From Cyanobium sp. FGCU52 (GTDB taxonomy: Bacteria; Cyanobacteriota; Cyanobacteriia; PCC-6307; Cyanobiaceae), in assembly GCA_024958715.1 (NCBI GenBank), contig JANWUS010000068.1, positions 1-61,670 on the forward strand: a stretch of 61,670 nt of DNA. The letters are read 5' to 3'. The number at the start of each line of letters is the position of its first letter. Position 1 is the stretch's first letter. Below, piece after piece: positions 3,266 to 27,802 of the stretch. A program made the translations under genes and the position numbers. The notes below the pieces were generated by a model. It ran no database searches, was not told the DNA's origin, and was given only the letters and a program-made list of their open reading frames with translations.

Positions 3266-4535
3266 CGCCTGATCTCCTCCGGCCCGCCGCTGAAGGAGGG
3301 AGCCTGCCAGAGCGCCGCCCCGGCGGGAAAGTCGCCCAGGATCTCCTGGCAGTAGCCGCGCAGCAGCAGCCGGGCCGCTTCGGCCGCACCGATGCCGCGG
3401 CTGCGCAGGTAAAACAGCTCGTCTTCCTGCAGCGAGCTCACGGTGGCGCCGTGGGCGCAGCGCACGTCGTCGGCCACGATCTCCAGTTCGGGCTTGGTGT
3501 CCACCCGGGCGCGATCCGACAGCAGCAGCGAGCGGCTGAGCTGGGAGGCATCGGTGCGCTGGGCCAGGCGGGGCACCACCACCGCGCCGTTGAACACGCT
3601 GCGGCCCTGGCCATCGGCCACCACCTTGTGCAGCTGCTCCAGACGGCCCTCGGGCCCCTCGAAGCGCACGCGGCTGTGGGTGTCGGCGATCTGATGCTCG
3701 TCCACCACCTGCAGCGCCCGCAGCCGGGTTTCGGCCGCTCCCTCGCTCTGCACCACCCGCGGCTCCAGCCGCACCAGGCCCCAGCCCCGGCTCACGGTGG
3801 CCAGCGCAAAGCGGCTGCCCGGCTGCTGGCGGATCGCCAGCCGGGCCAGCAGCACCGACTCCGACCCGCCGTTGGCCACCACGCCGTGGCGCAGTTCGGC
3901 GCCGGCGCCCAGATCGGCCTCCACCAGCGCGCTGGTGAGGTTGGCGCCACTCGAACGGTGCACCTGCAGCAGTTCCAGCCGGGCCTCCGGCTCCAGCAGC
4001 AGCAGCACCCGCACCGGCAGCACGCCCGGGCCGGAGCCGGCCTCGCTCACCAGTTCCAGCACCTCGCTCACCGCGCCCCGCACCCGCAGGGCCAGCACCG
4101 GCGCGTCGCAGGCGCCCTGGAGCAGCACCGGCCAGTCGGGCGCTTTGCCCTCAGGATCCAGGCAGCGGCCGAGGGCGTCGCGGGTCTCGTCAGCGGAGAG
4201 CACCTCGATGCCGGCGGGCCAGGCGATGGCCGCCAGGGTCTCGGGCCGGCCGTCCAGCACCACCCGGTGATGCCCTTCCGCCACCGGCGGCAGCTCGGGC
4301 AGCGCCTCGGGCGCCAGCAGCTGGGGGGCCACGGCGGCGATCGGGGCCGTGTCGGTGAAGCGCCAGTCGTCCTGGCGGCGGGAGGGCAGGCCGGCGGCCG
4401 CCAGCGCCGCCCGGGCGGACAGGGTGATCTCGGGCCGGAGGCCGGCGGGGGCCGGCAGGGCGCCCAGCAGGGCAGCCACCCAGGGATGGACCGGGGCGGC
4501 CACGGGGGCGGAGGTGGTGAGAGGAGCCGCCACCA

Positions 4536-4539
<4 letters not shown>
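3262..4539 (-). CDS. sufD: SufD, Fe-S cluster assembly scaffold subunit
   Basis: Subunit of the SufBC2D scaffold, which builds Fe-S clusters in the cytosol. The 425-residue product has a variable alpha-helical N-terminus including a WRFTD motif near residue 60, a beta-helix core, and the conserved C-terminal part with [25 protein letters not shown]-type sequence (about residues 350-380) shared by SufB and SufD. The conserved His in RCAHGAT is present. It overlaps sufC upstream and sufS downstream by 4 bp each, so the three are probably co-translated. Confidence 0.96.
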
Positions 4540-5324
<785 letters not shown>

Positions 5325-5376
5325 GGCGGGGCGAAAAGAAAAGGAAGGGAAATGGAGGGAATCGGCAAACGGGAGC

Positions 5377-6816
<1,440 letters not shown>

Positions 6817-21154: not shown

Positions 21155-22393
21155 ATGAACATCGAAGGTGGACAGATCGAGGTTCAATCCTTCCTGACAG
21201 TCACCCTGGGCATTCTTGTTCTTTTCCTCGGCAAGTCGCTCAATCAACGCTTTCGCATCCTCAGGGAATACACCATTCCAGAGCCGGTGAGCGGCGGGCT
21301 CTTCATCGCGGTGCTGATCAGCCTGCTGCATTTAGCCTTCGGTCTGGAGATCAGCTTCGGCCTGCGGGCCCGCGATGTGCTGCTGGTGGTCTTCTTCACC
21401 ACGGTGGGGATGAATGCCAGCTTCGCCGACCTTCGCCGTGGCGGCCGCGCCCTGGTGGTGCTGCTCGTGCTCACGATCGTGCTGATGCTGGCCCAGAACG
21501 CGCTGGGCATCAGCCTGGCCCGCTGGAGCGGACTGCCGCCGGCCTCCGGCCTGCTGGTGGGCACGGTGTCGTTGATCGGCGGCCACGGCACCACGATCGC
21601 CTGGGCGCCTCAGTTCGCCAGCGAGCATGGAGTGAGCAATGCCCTGGAGATCGGCATCGCCGCCGCCACCTTCGGCCTGATCCTGGCCAGCGCCAGCGGC
21701 GGCCCGATCGCCCGCTTCCTGATCCGCCGGCACCGCCTGGCCCTGCCCGGCGGCTCCACCGCCAGCGGAGGCACCCACAGGGACGACAAGACCAGGGCGG
21801 AGTCGGGCGAGGCGCTGATCCGCTCCCATGACTTCCTGGGGGCGGTGCTGGCGATCAACATCTGCATCATCCTCGGTTCGATTCTCCAGGATTTGATCAG
21901 GGATCTCGGGCTGTTCCTGCCTCTGTTCGTGCCCTGCCTGATCGTGGGCATCCTGCTCAGCAACCTCTTGCCGCGAAAGGGGGCGTGGCTGCCCTTCGGC
22001 TGGCCCGCGCGCACCCCGGCGGTGGATCTGATCGCCGAGATCTCCCTGGGCGCCTTCCTGGCGATGTCGCTGATGACGATCCAGTTCTGGACGCTGGTGG
22101 ATCTTGCCGGCCCGCTGCTGCTCATTCTCTTCGCCCAGTTCCTGCTGTCGCTGATGATCAATCTGTTCCTGGTGTTCCCGCTGCTCGGCGGCAATTACGA
22201 CGCCGCCGTGATCGCGGCGGGCTTCAGCGGCTTCACCCTCGGCTCCACTCCCACGGCCATGGCCAACATGACGGCCGTGACCCAGAAGTTCGGCCCCTCC
22301 TCCAAGGCCTTCATCGTGCTGCCGCTGGTGTCGGCGTTCTTCATCGATCTGTTGAATGCGGTGCTGATCCCCTATTTCCTGCATCGGGTCTGA
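21155..22393 (+). CDS. gltS: Sodium/glutamate symporter
   Basis: GltS-family Na+-dependent glutamate carrier. Two inverted halves can be seen, each with a Gly-rich re-entrant loop: GTVSLIGGHGTTIAWAP in the first and FSGFTLGSTPTAMANM in the second, the hallmark sequences of this family. About ten hydrophobic helices. I chose ATG 21155 (MNIEGGQIEVQSF), giving 412 residues; the frame is open to 21113 but that part lacks family character. It converges on the glutaminase gene, so glutamate import and glutamine-to-glutamate conversion are neighbours. Confidence 0.94.
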   Translation: MNIEGGQIEVQSFLTVTLGILVLFLGKSLNQRFRILREYTIPEPVSGGLFIAVLISLLHLAFGLEISFGLRARDVLLVVFFTTVGMNASFADLRRGGRALVVLLVLTIVLMLAQNALGISLARWSGLPPASGLLVGTVSLIGGHGTTIAWAPQFASEHGVSNALEIGIAAATFGLILASASGGPIARFLIRRHRLALPGGSTASGGTHRDDKTRAESGEALIRSHDFLGAVLAINICIILGSILQDLIRDLGLFLPLFVPCLIVGILLSNLLPRKGAWLPFGWPARTPAVDLIAEISLGAFLAMSLMTIQFWTLVDLAGPLLLILFAQFLLSLMINLFLVFPLLGGNYDAAVIAAGFSGFTLGSTPTAMANMTAVTQKFGPSSKAFIVLPLVSAFFIDLLNAVLIPYFLHRV

Positions 22394-22400
22394 GATCAGG

Positions 22401-22415
22401 GCCAGATCGCCTGGC
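22401..22415. terminator. Weak hairpin between gltS and glsA
   Basis: GCCAG-ATCGC-CTGGC, a 5-bp stem in the 42-bp gap between the two convergent genes. No T-run; termination is only suggested by position. Confidence 0.25.
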
Positions 22416-22435
22416 TTAGCCCCGCCGCGATTCCC

Positions 22436-23419
22436 TCACCCGGGCAGGGCCGGTGCAGAGGCCAGCAGATGCAAACCCAGCCGCTCCGACAGAAATGCCG
22501 CGGTGAGCTGGCCCCGCACACTGTTGCCAGCGCCGTCCAGGGGCGGCGAATAGGTGGCCAGGCCGCCCTTGCCGGGAGCCACGGTGATCATGCCGCCCGA
22601 CACGCCGCTCTTGCCGGGCAGGCCGATGTCGTAGATCCAGTCGCCGGAGGTTTCGTACAGGCCCGCGGTCACCATCACCGCCAGCACGGCCCGGCAGATC
22701 GGGGCGGCCACCACCTGCTCGCCGCTACGGGGATGGCGTCCCCCGTTGGCGAGGGTGGCGGCCATCAGCGCCAGATCATGGGTGGTGACGCTCAGGGCGC
22801 ACTGACGGGTGTAGAGATCGGTGCTGGCCTCGGGGTCGAACCAGATGCCCCCCTGCTCCTCCAGCAGGTTGGCGATGCCCAGGTTGCGGCGGTTCGTGGC
22901 CAGCTCCGACGCATACACCTCCTCATCCACCACCAGGGGGCGGCCGGCGAAGCGGGAGAAGCCTGCCGCGATGAAGGCCCACTTCGCCTCCGTGCTCTCG
23001 CCCGGCACCAGGCTCGTGGCGGCGATCGCTCCGGCATTCACCATCGGGTTGGAGAGGCCATCCTCTGCCCGCTCCACCGCCTGGACCGCATTGAACGGCA
23101 GGCCCGTGCTGTTCACCCCCAGCTTGTCACGCACCTCCCGCTCGCCGATCGCCTCGCAGATCAGTGCGTACAGAAACGGCTTCGACAGGCTCTGGATGCT
23201 GAAGGACTGTCCCGCTTGCCCCGCTTCGAACACCTGCCCTCCGGTGCTGGCCACCGCGATGGCGAACAGCTCCGGGTCGGCAGCGGCCAACGCCGGGATG
23301 TACGACGCCACCCTGCCCTCCCGAACAGCCTTGAAGCGCCGGTGCGCCTGCTCCACCAGGTCGGTCACCACCGCCGGGCCGGGCAGATGGCCCGTGGACA
23401 TCCAGCTCGCCATGCTCAT
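22436..23419 (-). CDS. glsA: Glutaminase
   Basis: Serine-dependent glutaminase of the beta-lactamase-like fold, converting glutamine to glutamate and ammonia in the cytosol. Family motifs: the S-x-x-K in SIQSLSKPF, then GLPFNAVQAVE, NPMVNAGAIA and, toward the end, GLPGKSGVSGGM. 327 residues is the usual length. The ATG overlaps the Anbu stop by 4 bp, so it is probably translated from the same message as Anbu. Confidence 0.95.
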   Translation of the reverse strand: MSMASWMSTGHLPGPAVVTDLVEQAHRRFKAVREGRVASYIPALAAADPELFAIAVASTGGQVFEAGQAGQSFSIQSLSKPFLYALICEAIGEREVRDKLGVNSTGLPFNAVQAVERAEDGLSNPMVNAGAIAATSLVPGESTEAKWAFIAAGFSRFAGRPLVVDEEVYASELATNRRNLGIANLLEEQGGIWFDPEASTDLYTRQCALSVTTHDLALMAATLANGGRHPRSGEQVVAAPICRAVLAVMVTAGLYETSGDWIYDIGLPGKSGVSGGMITVAPGKGGLATYSPPLDGAGNSVRGQLTAAFLSERLGLHLLASAPALPG

Positions 23420-24183
23420 CCCCTGCCGCCGCTCTCCCAGGGCATCTGAGGAAGGCGGTGCAGCGCCTCCCGCTGAGCCTCACTCCAGGTCTGGATCATC
23501 TCGTCGAGGCGCGGATCATCCGCCTCCAGCCTGATCTGATGGGCGATCGCCTTCGTTCCCGCCTTGATCACCACCAGATCGAACGGGGGGCCCACCGAGA
23601 GATTCGAGCGCTGGGTGAGCACCTGCGAAATCAGGCAGAGACGGGAGGCATCTTCGAGCGAAAGATTGGCGTGGCCCACGTTGTCGAGCGGAGGCTTGCC
23701 GTATTTGCTCTCGCCGATCTGCAGGTAAGGGGTCTCCGCGGTGGCCTGAATGGCGTTGCCCTGCGGATAGATCAGAAACAGCCCATGGGGCTCGCTGCCG
23801 ATCTGGCCCGCCAGCAGGAAGGACGCCGTGACGCTGCCGCCGCTGCGGCGAAGGGCATCCTCATACTCCCGCTGAACCGCCACGTTGATCCGCCCCACAT
23901 AGGCCGCCGCCTCGAAGAGGTAGTCGCAATGGCGAAAATCACGCCCCGCCCCCTGATCGGAAGCCTGGTCAGCCGGTCGATCGAGATCGCGGCGGATCCA
24001 GCTGACCACCTCCTGGGTGGTGGCCAGATTGCCGGCCGCCAGCAGCACGAACAACCGATCCGGCGCCGGCTGGAACACATACAGCTTGCTGTAGGTGGAG
24101 ATGTAGTCGACCCCTGCATTGGTGCGGGAATCGGAGACCAGCACCAGGCCTTTCTCCAGCCGGTAGCCAATGCCATAGGTCAT
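23416..24183 (-). CDS. Anbu, proteasome-like ancestral beta subunit peptidase
   Basis: Ntn-hydrolase fold related to the 20S proteasome beta subunit and HslV. The N-terminus MTYGIGYRLEKGLVLVSDSR followed by TNAGVDYIST is diagnostic of Anbu; Thr2 would become the N-terminal nucleophile after Met removal. LLAAGNLATTQEVVSW and the C-terminal FDLVVIKAGT also fit. 255 residues, as usual. In many bacteria Anbu is linked to ATP-grasp, alpha-E and transglutaminase genes; none is here. It instead overlaps glutaminase and sits 60 bp downstream of an RND operon. Its substrate is unknown. Confidence 0.93.
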   Translation of the reverse strand: MTYGIGYRLEKGLVLVSDSRTNAGVDYISTYSKLYVFQPAPDRLFVLLAAGNLATTQEVVSWIRRDLDRPADQASDQGAGRDFRHCDYLFEAAAYVGRINVAVQREYEDALRRSGGSVTASFLLAGQIGSEPHGLFLIYPQGNAIQATAETPYLQIGESKYGKPPLDNVGHANLSLEDASRLCLISQVLTQRSNLSVGPPFDLVVIKAGTKAIAHQIRLEADDPRLDEMIQTWSEAQREALHRLPQMPWESGGRG

Positions 24184-24243: not shown

Positions 24244-24525
24244 CTACAGGCGGTCCGGAGCGCCCGGTTCCCCCAGCCGCGTCAGGGCCAGCTGGCGCAT
24301 CGTCTCCCCCCAGGCGCCGCAAGCCGAGGCGCCGCCCACCACCAGCACGACCCACTGCCACGGCAGGGGCTTGAGCAAGTCTCCGGGGGTGCGGGCGACC
24401 CGATGGGCCAGGGCGAGCAGAACGCCAGCCGCCACGCCCGCCAGCACCGCCGCCAGCAGGATGCTGCGGCGATCCACCCGCCGCTGGCGGCCGCGTCGGT
24501 AGCCGGGGGGAGTGGGCAGGGGCAT
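24244..24525 (-). CDS. Small 2-TM protein following RND pump 1
   Basis: 93 residues: a short basic N-terminus (RRGRQRRVDRR), two hydrophobic helices (about 21-43 and 55-76), and a short soluble end. It starts 1 bp from the RND stop, so it belongs to that operon. The sequence around the helices (RRSILLAAVLAGVAAGVLLAL... WGETMRQLALT) resembles the protein at 28946-29281, which occupies the same place after RND pump 2. It may be an accessory subunit comparable in position, not in sequence, to small RND partners such as AcrZ. Confidence 0.78.
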   Translation of the reverse strand: MPLPTPPGYRRGRQRRVDRRSILLAAVLAGVAAGVLLALAHRVARTPGDLLKPLPWQWVVLVVGGASACGAWGETMRQLALTRLGEPGAPDRL

Positions 24526-24526
24526 C

Positions 24527-27500
24527 TCAGGGGGCCGGCGGTTCGGCGGGCAGGGGGTCGGTGGCCTGGCTGGCGGGGAACCAGGCCACTTCCAGGTTCT
24601 TCATCAGCACGTAGAAGGAGGGCACCACGAACAGGCTGAGCACGGTGGCCACCAGCAGGCCACCGAAGATCACCGCCCCCAGGGAACGCTGGCTGAGGGC
24701 GCCGGCGCCGTCGGCCACCATCAGCGGGAAGAAGCCCGCAAGCGCAGCCATCGCCGTCATCAGGATCGGCCGCAGCCGCGACGTGGCGGCCCCCTTGGCC
24801 GCGGCCGCCGCCGTCATCCCCTGCTCCATGCGCTGGTTGGCCAGGTCCACGATCAGGATGCCGTTCTTGGCCGCCAGGCCGATCAGCGTCACCAGGCCCA
24901 CCTGGGCATACACGTTGTTCACCTGGCCGCGCAGCACCAGGAAGGCCAGGGCGCCGAGCATCGCCAGCGGCACGGTCATCAGGATGATCAGCGGATCGAT
25001 GTAGCTGCCGTACTGGGCCGAGAGCACCAGATACACCACCACGATCCCCAGCGCGAAGACCAGCACCGACAGGGAGCCCGCCTGCACCTCCGAGCGCGTG
25101 AGCGACGACCAGGCCGAACCGATGTTGTTGAAGTTCATCGCCCGGAAGGCCCCCTGCAGCGCATCGATCGCCTGGCCGCTGCTGCGGCCCGCCGCCTCGA
25201 AGCCCTGCACCAGCACCGTGCGGTAGAGGTCGTAGTGGCTCACGATCGGCGGCGCGCTGTCGAGCCGGGCCCGCACCACGTTGGAGAGCGGCACCTGCCG
25301 GCCGCTGCGGTCGTTCACATAGAGATTGTCGAGGTCCTGCACCAGGGAGCGCCGGTCGGCATCGGCCTGCACATACACCTGGCGGTACTGCTGCTGCTCG
25401 TAGGTCTGGTTCACGAAGCTGCCGCCGGTGAGGGTGCCCAGGGCCGCCATCGCCGCGCCGTAGTCGATGTCGAGCGAACCCATGCGGTCGCGGTCGACGT
25501 CGAGGCGCCACACCGGGGCATCGCTGATGAACTGGGTGTAGACCTTGTCGAAGGCGCCGGTGGTGCGGGCGCGGGCGATGAACTCGCCGGCCAGGCGCCC
25601 CAGATCGGTGGGGGTATAGCCGCCGTTGCTGAGATCGTTGAACTGGAACGACAGGCCCCCCTGGGCGCTGAACCCCGGCACCGCCGGCGGAGCGGAGGCC
25701 AGCACAAGGGCGCCGGGGATCTCGCGGAAGGCCTTGTTCATGCGCGCGATGATCGCGTCGGCGCCCTGATCGGCCCGGGTGCGCTGATCGATCGGCTTGA
25801 GGCCGAAGAAGAACAGGCCCTGGTTGACCGAACTGCCGTTGAATCCGGCCCCGCCCACCAGTTCCCCCGACACCACATCGGGCTCCTTGGCGATGATGGC
25901 CTGGGCCCTGGCCGCCACCTCCATCGTGGCCTCCAGGGACGCCTGGGGCGGCAGCTGGATGATGCCCAGCCCGTAGCCCTGATCCTCGGTGGGCACGAAG
26001 CCGGTGGGGATCACCACGAAGGCCAGGCCGGTGACCACCACGCCGCCCAGCAGAATCGCCACCAGCACCCGCCGGAAGCGGATCGCCTGATCCAGCAGGC
26101 GCTCATAACCCCGCGCCAGGCGCTCGAAGCCGGCGTTGAAGGTGGTGAAGATCGGCATCAGGAAGGTGCCCACCACCGCCCCCAGCGCCCCGAGCAGCAG
26201 GGCGGCGATCCAGCCGCCGGCGAGGGCGCCGTAGCCGGCTCCGAACACGCCGCCGATCACGGTCCAGCGCAGGCCACGGGGTTCGGTCTTGCCGCCCCCC
26301 AGCAGCAGGGCCGACTGCAGCGGCTTGCCGGTGATGGCATTGAAGGTGGACACCAGGATCGAGAACACGATCGTGAGCGCGAACTGGCGGTAGATCACCC
26401 CCGTGGCACCGGGGAAGAAGGCCACCGGCACGAACACCGCCAGCAGCACCAGGGCGGTGGCCAGGATCGCTCCGGTGAGCTCCTTCATCGCATTGGAGGC
26501 GGCCCGGAACGGCGGGTCGCCCGCCTCGATCCGGGCCGCCACCGCCTCCACCACAACGATCGCGTCATCCACCACCAGGCCCGTGGCCAGGATCACGCCG
26601 AGCAGGGTGAGCTCGTTGATCGAGAAGCCGAAGGCCTTCACGAAGATCAGCGCCCCCAGCAGGGCGATCGGCAGGGCCAGGGCCGGAACCGCCGTGGCCT
26701 TCCAGTCCTGCAGGAACAGGAAGATGATCAGCAGCACCAGCACCACGGCATCGCGCAGGGCGTCGAGGGCCCCGGAGATCGAGGCGTTGATGAAGTCGGT
26801 CTGATCGAACACCTTCTCCAGCACCACCCCGGGGGGCAGGGTGCGGCGGAAGTCGTCGAGCACCTGGTCCACGCCCCTGGCCGTGGTGATCGCGTTGGTG
26901 CCCGGCAGCTGGATCACGCCGAAGCCCACGCAGGGATAACCGCTGCGCGCATTCACCGCGGAGCTGTTGAAGTTCTGGAAGGCGTACTCCGCACGGCCCA
27001 CATCCCCCAGGCGGATCAGCCCGCCATCGGGCCCCTTGGCCAGGATCAGCTTCTCGAACTCGGCCACCGTCTTGAGGTTGCCATCCACCAGGATCGGAAA
27101 CGTGGTGCGGTTCGACGGCACCGAGGGCGGGCCGCCGATGCTGCCGGCGATCACCACCTGGTTCTGCGACTTCAGGGCCTCCACCACATCGGTGACCGAG
27201 AGGTTGAAGCGGGCCAGCCGCAACGGATCCACCCACAGCCGGAAGGAGGGGGAGCTGGCGCCGAACACATTCACCTGGCCCACGCCGGGGGACCGGGAGA
27301 GGGGATAGTCGAGATTGAGTTCGTACAGACCGTTGAGATAGCTGCGCTCGAACTGGCCTTCGGTGGAGGTGAGGTTGTAGACGAGCAGATAGCTGGTGGC
27401 GGTCTGCTGCACCGTCACGCCCTGGGCATTCACCTGCGGCGGCAGCTGGGAGGTGGCGGTCTGCACCCGGTTGAGCACGTTCACCTGATCGATGTCCGCA

Positions 27501-27802
27501 TCGGTGCCCGCCTTGAAGAAGACGTTGATCTGGCTGCTGCCCTCGCCGGTGCTGAAGGAGGTGATGTAGTCCATCCCCGGGGCGCCGTTGATGTTCTCCT
27601 CCAGCGGACCGGTCACCGCGCTCTCCACCGTGAGCGCATCGGCCCCCGGCAGGTTGGCGTTCACCTGGATCGTGGGCGGGGCGATGTTGGGGAGGTTCTC
27701 GATCGGCAGCAGCGGCAGCGCGATCAGGCCGGCCATCAGGATCAGGATGCTGCACACCGTGCTGAGCACGGGGCGGCGGATGAAGGTGTCCGACAGACTC
27801 AT
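24527..27802 (-). CDS. RND-type efflux permease 1 (HAE-1-like)
   Basis: Inner-membrane proton-driven transporter of the AcrB type, 1091 residues. N-terminal MSLSDTFIRRPVLSTVC, the ENLPNIAPPTIQV start of the porter domain, the relay Asp pair in GLVVDDAIVVVE (about 412-413) and the C-terminal AAKNGILIVDLANQ are all present. Start is ATG 27802, which overlaps the membrane-fusion gene by 4 bp. Between the two RND halves (about residues 502-553) there is an extra hydrophobic stretch that AcrB lacks, probably two additional helices. No TolC-like gene is adjacent. Hydrophobic-compound export is the family role; substrates are unknown. Confidence 0.95.
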   Translation of the reverse strand: MSLSDTFIRRPVLSTVCSILILMAGLIALPLLPIENLPNIAPPTIQVNANLPGADALTVESAVTGPLEENINGAPGMDYITSFSTGEGSSQINVFFKAGTDADIDQVNVLNRVQTATSQLPPQVNAQGVTVQQTATSYLLVYNLTSTEGQFERSYLNGLYELNLDYPLSRSPGVGQVNVFGASSPSFRLWVDPLRLARFNLSVTDVVEALKSQNQVVIAGSIGGPPSVPSNRTTFPILVDGNLKTVAEFEKLILAKGPDGGLIRLGDVGRAEYAFQNFNSSAVNARSGYPCVGFGVIQLPGTNAITTARGVDQVLDDFRRTLPPGVVLEKVFDQTDFINASISGALDALRDAVVLVLLIIFLFLQDWKATAVPALALPIALLGALIFVKAFGFSINELTLLGVILATGLVVDDAIVVVEAVAARIEAGDPPFRAASNAMKELTGAILATALVLLAVFVPVAFFPGATGVIYRQFALTIVFSILVSTFNAITGKPLQSALLLGGGKTEPRGLRWTVIGGVFGAGYGALAGGWIAALLLGALGAVVGTFLMPIFTTFNAGFERLARGYERLLDQAIRFRRVLVAILLGGVVVTGLAFVVIPTGFVPTEDQGYGLGIIQLPPQASLEATMEVAARAQAIIAKEPDVVSGELVGGAGFNGSSVNQGLFFFGLKPIDQRTRADQGADAIIARMNKAFREIPGALVLASAPPAVPGFSAQGGLSFQFNDLSNGGYTPTDLGRLAGEFIARARTTGAFDKVYTQFISDAPVWRLDVDRDRMGSLDIDYGAAMAALGTLTGGSFVNQTYEQQQYRQVYVQADADRRSLVQDLDNLYVNDRSGRQVPLSNVVRARLDSAPPIVSHYDLYRTVLVQGFEAAGRSSGQAIDALQGAFRAMNFNNIGSAWSSLTRSEVQAGSLSVLVFALGIVVVYLVLSAQYGSYIDPLIILMTVPLAMLGALAFLVLRGQVNNVYAQVGLVTLIGLAAKNGILIVDLANQRMEQGMTAAAAAKGAATSRLRPILMTAMAALAGFFPLMVADGAGALSQRSLGAVIFGGLLVATVLSLFVVPSFYVLMKNLEVAWFPASQATDPLPAEPPAP

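Follow-up and report, generated by a model that had tools for sequence, protein, structure and literature searches.

Why should the gene for Anbu, a proteasome-like protein and predicted N-terminal threonine peptidase, run into the gene for a glutaminase? The question is raised by contig JANWUS010000068.1 (our contig C68) of Cyanobium sp. FGCU52, a stretch of 61,670 nucleotides that is here called the window; it belongs to a genome of 3.48 Mb. Anbu is a known protein family, and in the accessible part of Fuchs et al. 2017 (PMC5666114) the finding of its physiological substrates and interactors is named as a key task. We report that one type of glutaminase keeps a near-exclusive partnership with Anbu and that this partnership is confined to one family, the Cyanobiaceae. 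A lasting partnership of this kind appears to be new: in the open-access literature searched, no report of a link between Anbu and glutaminase was found. Several Anbu structures have been solved. The pairing offers a testable clue to the role of Anbu, and a lineage that ties the peptidase to a soluble, easily assayed glutaminase and to a transporter yields a short list of testable substrates and phenotypes.

Anbu is paired with one type of glutaminase in the Cyanobiaceae

Anbu is encoded in the window by an open reading frame (ORF) of 255 aa on the minus strand (23,416-24,183), which starts with Met-Thr and carries Asp17 and Lys32 in mature numbering. A search of the PDB found five distinct solved sequences that resemble it: 5loy (1.5e-62), 5nyj (3.6e-52), 5nyf, 5nyw and 5lox, the best match spanning residues 2-250. 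Three of the five were deposited as Anbu and two, 5nyw and 5lox, as 'Peptidase'; 5lox is identified as Anbu in the available text of PMC8665760. Against Pfam and NCBIfam, at an E-value of 0.001, the window protein gave no family match. The catalytic Thr, Asp and Lys are present in 121, 122 and 122, respectively, of 122 aligned rows (nine of them second copies of the same locus), and the sole exception for Thr is a locus, L118, whose match begins at residue 6 (L, G and C numbers are our labels for loci, genomes and contigs).

The adjoining gene, glsA, lies on the same strand (22,436-23,419; 327 aa) and encodes a serine-dependent glutaminase A, matching Pfam Glutaminase (PF04960; 8.1e-101, 337 bits, cut-off 27) and NCBIfam NF009020 (423 bits, cut-off 395). 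Residues 77-80 read SLSK, and we take SxxK to be the glutaminase A motif; Ser77 and Lys80 are invariant in all 44 aligned proteins of the type defined below.

Relatives were sought in a sample of 400 Cyanobiaceae genomes, at least 83 of which contain an Anbu match. By identity to the window protein, whose closest named match is from Cyanobium sp. FGCU6 (93%), the Anbu proteins were sorted into type A (about 63-93%), type B (about 55-62%) and type C (about 40%), and 52 type-A loci were examined. Glutaminases at least 69% identical to that of the window were termed glsA-I; the sample holds 44 near-full copies, one of which (G692) is interrupted. Thirty-nine of the 44 lie within 150 bp of Anbu, 37 of them beside type A and two at the hrcA locus (L158 and L159), and the other five comprise two at a contig edge, one at 6 kb from Anbu and two without a listed Anbu on the contig. 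None of the 81 other glutaminases in the sample adjoins a listed Anbu, 19 being on a contig with one (the nearest at 125 kb) and 62 not, a result that rules out chance adjacency. Both counts leave out 14 partial glutaminase rows, some of which are remnants beside Anbu.

The distribution across genomes follows the same line. Taking type A as identity of at least 63%, a cut-off that admits two proteins placed outside the A clade by the tree (L133 of G424 and L134, the second copy of G441), glsA-I was found in 41 of 49 type-A genomes, in 3 of 34 genomes with another listed Anbu and in 0 of 317 without one; the genomes being related, the Fisher value of 5e-12 serves only as a description. Other glutaminases are not biased in this way: they occur in 32 of the 49 type-A genomes versus 19 of the 34 other Anbu genomes (p 0.49), and in 12 of the 317 without a listed Anbu. 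A first sample of the phylum had already placed glsA after Anbu in six of six type-A loci, the window counted. What stands upstream of the linked pairs is of at least seven kinds (HrcA, a 93-aa ORF, an RND gene, a LysM protein, RimK, an aminotransferase, a 177-aa protein without a Pfam match and others), and the downstream neighbour is always glsA.

In the window the TGA of Anbu and the ATG of glsA share 23,416-23,419 on the minus strand, where the sequence reads ATGA, so the overlap of stop and start reported in a preliminary description of this DNA is correct; it measures 4 bp. Both genes are co-directional in 37 of 37 type-A pairs, and they would presumably be co-transcribed. A strictly conserved overlap was considered and rejected, since it is clear, as the only start found, in only 10 of the 37 pairs; it is one option in two, the nearest glsA start lies 2-62 bp past the Anbu stop in 23, and no glsA start was found in two. 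A different junction is seen in L094 (6,749-8,143) and L095: here type-A Anbu has no glsA, and its called ORF shares 23 bp with the gene of a 464-aa protein that has membrane-like stretches and matches nothing in Pfam or NCBIfam.

History of the pair

A tree of 112 Anbu proteins joins types A and B in one clade (support 100/99), which a long branch sets off from type C and from the Anbu proteins of other cyanobacteria; the order within this clade depends on the midpoint root, because the tree was rooted at the midpoint. Type B adjoins hrcA: in the type-B loci examined the HrcA match stops 3-84 bp before Anbu, and a pyridoxal phosphate (PLP)-dependent enzyme usually faces Anbu from downstream. 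The window genome carries a second Anbu of this type (contig C6, 40,840-41,616; L002 and L039; 59% identity), where about 20 bp separate Anbu from the end of the upstream HrcA match and a PLP-dependent enzyme gene converges on Anbu from downstream. An HrcA-like gene (34%) also stands directly before Anbu in another cyanobacterium (L171).

The tree includes 21 type-B rows, without glsA, and 48 type-A rows, mostly with it. Below the A/B split branch two copies from the hrcA region with glsA (L158, L159) and three with remnants of it (L160, L139, L133), and also three copies without glsA (L134, L141, L186). Because glsA-bearing copies of the hrcA region branch below the split, the simplest reading of the tree is that glsA would have been captured once, behind Anbu near hrcA, the pair then copied elsewhere and glsA lost from its first location. 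Two loci do not fit this reading easily: L133 and L099 lie beyond the PLP-enzyme gene and not between it and hrcA, and L099 falls in the A clade. In the glsA tree the copies from the hrcA locus do not resolve (82/48). Among the matches listed, the nearest relatives of glsA-I outside the family are genes of Cupriavidus and Roseomonas on plasmid-collection records, at about 60%. Arrival of glsA-I from proteobacteria already linked to Anbu was rejected, as the Cupriavidus and Roseomonas records all fall outside the 26 in which Anbu was matched; the sole neighbourhood examined, that of Roseomonas, contains no Anbu.

Such a history could by itself account for the pairing, an explanation that we regard as possible but doubtful: glsA was captured once near hrcA, the segment was copied whole and never separated, and the two genes work apart. 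One capture is enough on the Anbu tree; each gene decays independently, with 15 of the 52 type-A loci lacking a near-full adjacent glsA; and the neighbourhood of the window (RND, gltS, porin-like and phosphoglucomutase genes) is common to many relatives. Linkage by descent accords less well with a pair that is kept whichever of at least seven kinds of gene lies upstream, with a gltS gene that joins the pair in two forms and two orientations, or with the absence of any link to a listed Anbu among the 81 other glutaminases.

A sodium/glutamate symporter recurs beside the pair

Downstream of glsA in the window lies gltS (21,155-22,393, plus strand), a sodium/glutamate symporter gene that matches TIGR00210 with 412.6 bits (cut-off 310.75). 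It is convergent with glsA, as the preliminary description had it, and the gap between the two measures 42 bp. Of the 39 genomes with the pair, 28 have a gltS gene no more than 6 kb downstream of glsA-I; in 23 it is co-directional and about 48% identical to the window gltS, and in five it is convergent and of the window type. In G527, G489 and G537 the matches to glsA and gltS are 72-83 bp apart. The remaining 11 genomes include one with a gltS fragment upstream only and 10 with no gltS on the contig or a distant one only; in one of these 10, G680, the contig ends in glsA. Two further loci deserve mention: in L032 (G270) the gltS match is split into two pieces, separated by about 3 kb that hold two other ORFs, and L136 (G497) has a degraded Anbu, no glsA match and a full-length convergent gltS match, as though the pair had decayed and gltS had been kept.

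Because the pairing is kept beside many upstream genes and gltS recurs, we tentatively favour, with somewhat less than even confidence, the reading that anbuA-glsA(-gltS) is a small accessory module of the Cyanobiaceae for recovering glutamine and glutamate. The AnbuA particle would cut its presumed protein or peptide substrates and release glutamine or glutamate, either as single amino acids or within short peptides; GlsA would deamidate free glutamine, yielding glutamate and ammonia; and GltS, whose place another amino-acid permease would take in some genomes, would move glutamate with sodium and, in its presumed direction of transport, balance the pool. A salvage module fits the statement in Fuchs et al. 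2017 (PMC5666114) that Anbu rises when Pseudomonas putida is limited for nitrogen.

The symporter could also be read in terms of ion and pH balance, with GlsA and GltS acting under salt or acid stress and Anbu clearing the proteins damaged under that stress. We consider this improbable. It draws on the sodium coupling of the GltS present in 28 of the 39 pair genomes and on an AI-2E family gene that lies between glsA and gltS in many loci, the AI-2E family including Na+/H+ antiporters according to an excerpt of PMC7221264; it is weakened by the window itself, where no AI-2E gene was found beside the pair. What often separates gltS from glsA, or from the AI-2E gene, is the gene of a protein of about 171 aa that matches no family and has a signal-like N-terminus (L034, 5,350-5,865, in a cluster of 21).

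Glutamate-related genes near Anbu

Three loci carry a RimK-family alpha-L-glutamate ligase gene directly upstream of Anbu (L103, L104 and L114, in genomes G501, G529 and G489). The RimK of L103, with which those of L104 and L114 share 90% and 88% identity, matches TIGR00768 with 211.5 bits (cut-off 143.4); the RimK match in L104 has a stop at position 366 of 374, near its end. These loci suggest a turnover of poly- or oligo-glutamate, in which a RimK-type ligase would add glutamates to a protein or metabolite and Anbu would trim them, as RimB does with RimK. In support, RimB takes glutamates off RpsF that RimK has polyglutamated, according to PMC11957791, and in the account of PMC5666114 and PMC6376114 Iyer et al. 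2009 proposed a role of Anbu in peptide synthesis or tagging. The opposite is favoured by Fuchs et al., who in the accessible portion of PMC5666114 prefer protein degradation and regard peptide synthesis as less likely. Close RimK genes are also few, in just 6 of the 16 genomes tested and beside Anbu in only 3, and the one PF08443 match of the window genome (62.7 bits) is on a contig other than the window, about 27 kb from the type-B Anbu. We consider glutamate turnover of this kind unlikely, and likewise the part that the same reading gives to GlsA and GltS, which would feed or drain the glutamate pool. An allied version, a reversible glutamylation or storage-peptide cycle in which Anbu, as an ancestral relative of the proteasome, would remove Glu or Gln units added by amide ligases (of RimK type in some genomes) and the glutaminase and GltS would recycle the amino acid, we hold to be improbable too.

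Other neighbours with a possible bearing on glutamate were singled out after being seen. An amino-acid permease gene is divergent from RimK in L103 and L104 (one of the two was scanned), an aminotransferase gene is divergent from Anbu in L115 and L118 (again one of the two was scanned), and in L129 and L130 an N-formylglutamate-amidohydrolase-like gene, the genome's one match of this kind, lies with a transglutaminase about 1.7-2.1 kb from the type-A pair.

The preliminary description had proposed a link between Anbu and glutamine/glutamate metabolism. Comparative genomics supports this within the family, through the pairing, gltS and, in a few genomes, the RimK, permease, aminotransferase, N-formylglutamate-amidohydrolase-like and transglutaminase neighbours; outside the family no pair was found in the loci sampled. 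The refuting condition that it had named, a separation of Anbu and glsA in nearly all relatives, does not hold within the family, where 39 of 44 glsA-I genes adjoin Anbu, but would hold for the other cyanobacteria sampled (0 of 24 loci). For its more specific suggestion, that Anbu might process glutamyl-modified peptides, only the three RimK loci speak.

Comparison with known systems

The canonical Anbu operon (ATP-grasp, Alpha-E, transglutaminase, Anbu) shares with the window the Anbu family and its catalytic residues, and likeness to it is seen in other loci, where Anbu is near Alpha-E (L170, L177), a DUF2126 amidoligase (L172) or transglutaminases. The window differs in its immediate neighbours, which are the glutaminase, GltS, a 93-aa ORF and an RND transporter, and the one Alpha-E match of the window genome is on contig C82, away from the window. 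In L172, from another cyanobacterial family, the DUF2126 putative amidoligase (3,404-5,713) lies about 0.3 kb upstream of Anbu. Type-C loci have an N-formylglutamate-amidohydrolase-like gene just upstream in 9 of 11 cases and a transglutaminase in 8 of 11; among the neighbours scanned in L043-L045, L143, L144 and L147-L150, no ATP-grasp or Alpha-E gene was found.

Glutaminase paired with an amino-acid transporter is familiar from E. coli, where GlsA (YbaS) and GadC serve glutamine-dependent acid resistance. A glutaminase and an amino-acid transporter are found here as well, but GltS is a sodium/glutamate symporter and Anbu has no counterpart in that system. The RimABK system of ribosome modification resembles three relatives in which a RimK-family ligase gene is followed by a peptidase-family gene, as RimK is accompanied by RimB. 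It differs in that no RimK-type ligase lies beside the window Anbu and in the nature of the peptidase, RimB being a retropepsin-like aspartic endopeptidase (from the available part of PMC11957791) and Anbu a relative of the threonine Ntn (N-terminal nucleophile) hydrolases.

Evidence against a functional module

Several observations weigh against a glutamine/glutamate recovery module. The first concerns synteny, which is seen in the family and not in the loci sampled elsewhere: glsA adjoins Anbu in 0 of 24 other cyanobacterial loci, being absent from flanks of about 1.5 kb in all 24 (for L013 the flank covers just about 250 bases downstream), and it is likewise absent from 10 outside loci with longer flanks, nine of which are among the 24. 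Three glsA-I-like genes elsewhere in the phylum (59-66%, among the matches listed) are not near Anbu by a comparison made by eye. The pairing counts themselves are not independent, because the genomes share descent.

Within type A the pair is not universal. The 15 of 52 loci without an adjacent near-full glsA include 12 with no glsA match (L064, L094, L095, L099, L102, L106, L107, L112, L125, L132, L134 and L136), and in L112 and L136 Anbu is broken as well; L100 and L133 have glsA remnants only, and L093 is cut by the contig edge. Decay can strike either partner, for Anbu is interrupted beside an intact glsA in G521 and G537, and remnants of glsA stand beside an intact Anbu in G689, G445, G479 and G424. 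Phosphoglycerate kinase, LysM, radical SAM and cNMP-binding neighbours also occur near the pair and have no evident link to glutamate.

A strict NtcA site (GTAN8TAC) was found in 0 of 48 upstream regions of type-A Anbu, and in 6 of 769 gene starts overall; nitrogen control is therefore unsupported. In addition, in the tests of Piasecka et al. (PMC6376114) Anbu proteins showed no amidase activity toward the substrates tried.

Further features of Anbu and its surroundings

Upstream of Anbu in the window, after a gap of 60 bp and in the same direction, lies the 93-aa ORF (24,244-24,525, minus strand), which is also present in L092 and L136 and gave no family match in Pfam or NCBIfam. Farther upstream, again in the same direction, is the AcrB-type RND transporter gene (24,527-27,799, start approximate, minus strand; Pfam ACR_tran, 1.2e-281); many other type-A loci likewise have an RND gene nearby.

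An altered S1 pocket in type A was considered and rejected: no position separates A from B in mature residues 17-56, the stretch that we take, numbering by analogy, as the pocket region of Anbu. By the chosen cut only four positions separate the two types, mature 6, 85, 93 and 190. Type-C Anbu genes as pseudogenes with in-frame stops were also rejected, the stop falling at about residue 243, near the usual end (aligned rows L146 and L148-L150). Early or middle stops in Anbu occur in two type-A loci, L112 and L118.

Finally, on a plasmid of Azospirillum brasilense (L199) Anbu lies beside ABC transporter genes, and amidohydrolase and hydroxyisourate hydrolase genes are found a few kb away, a possible nitrogen-scavenging context for Anbu.

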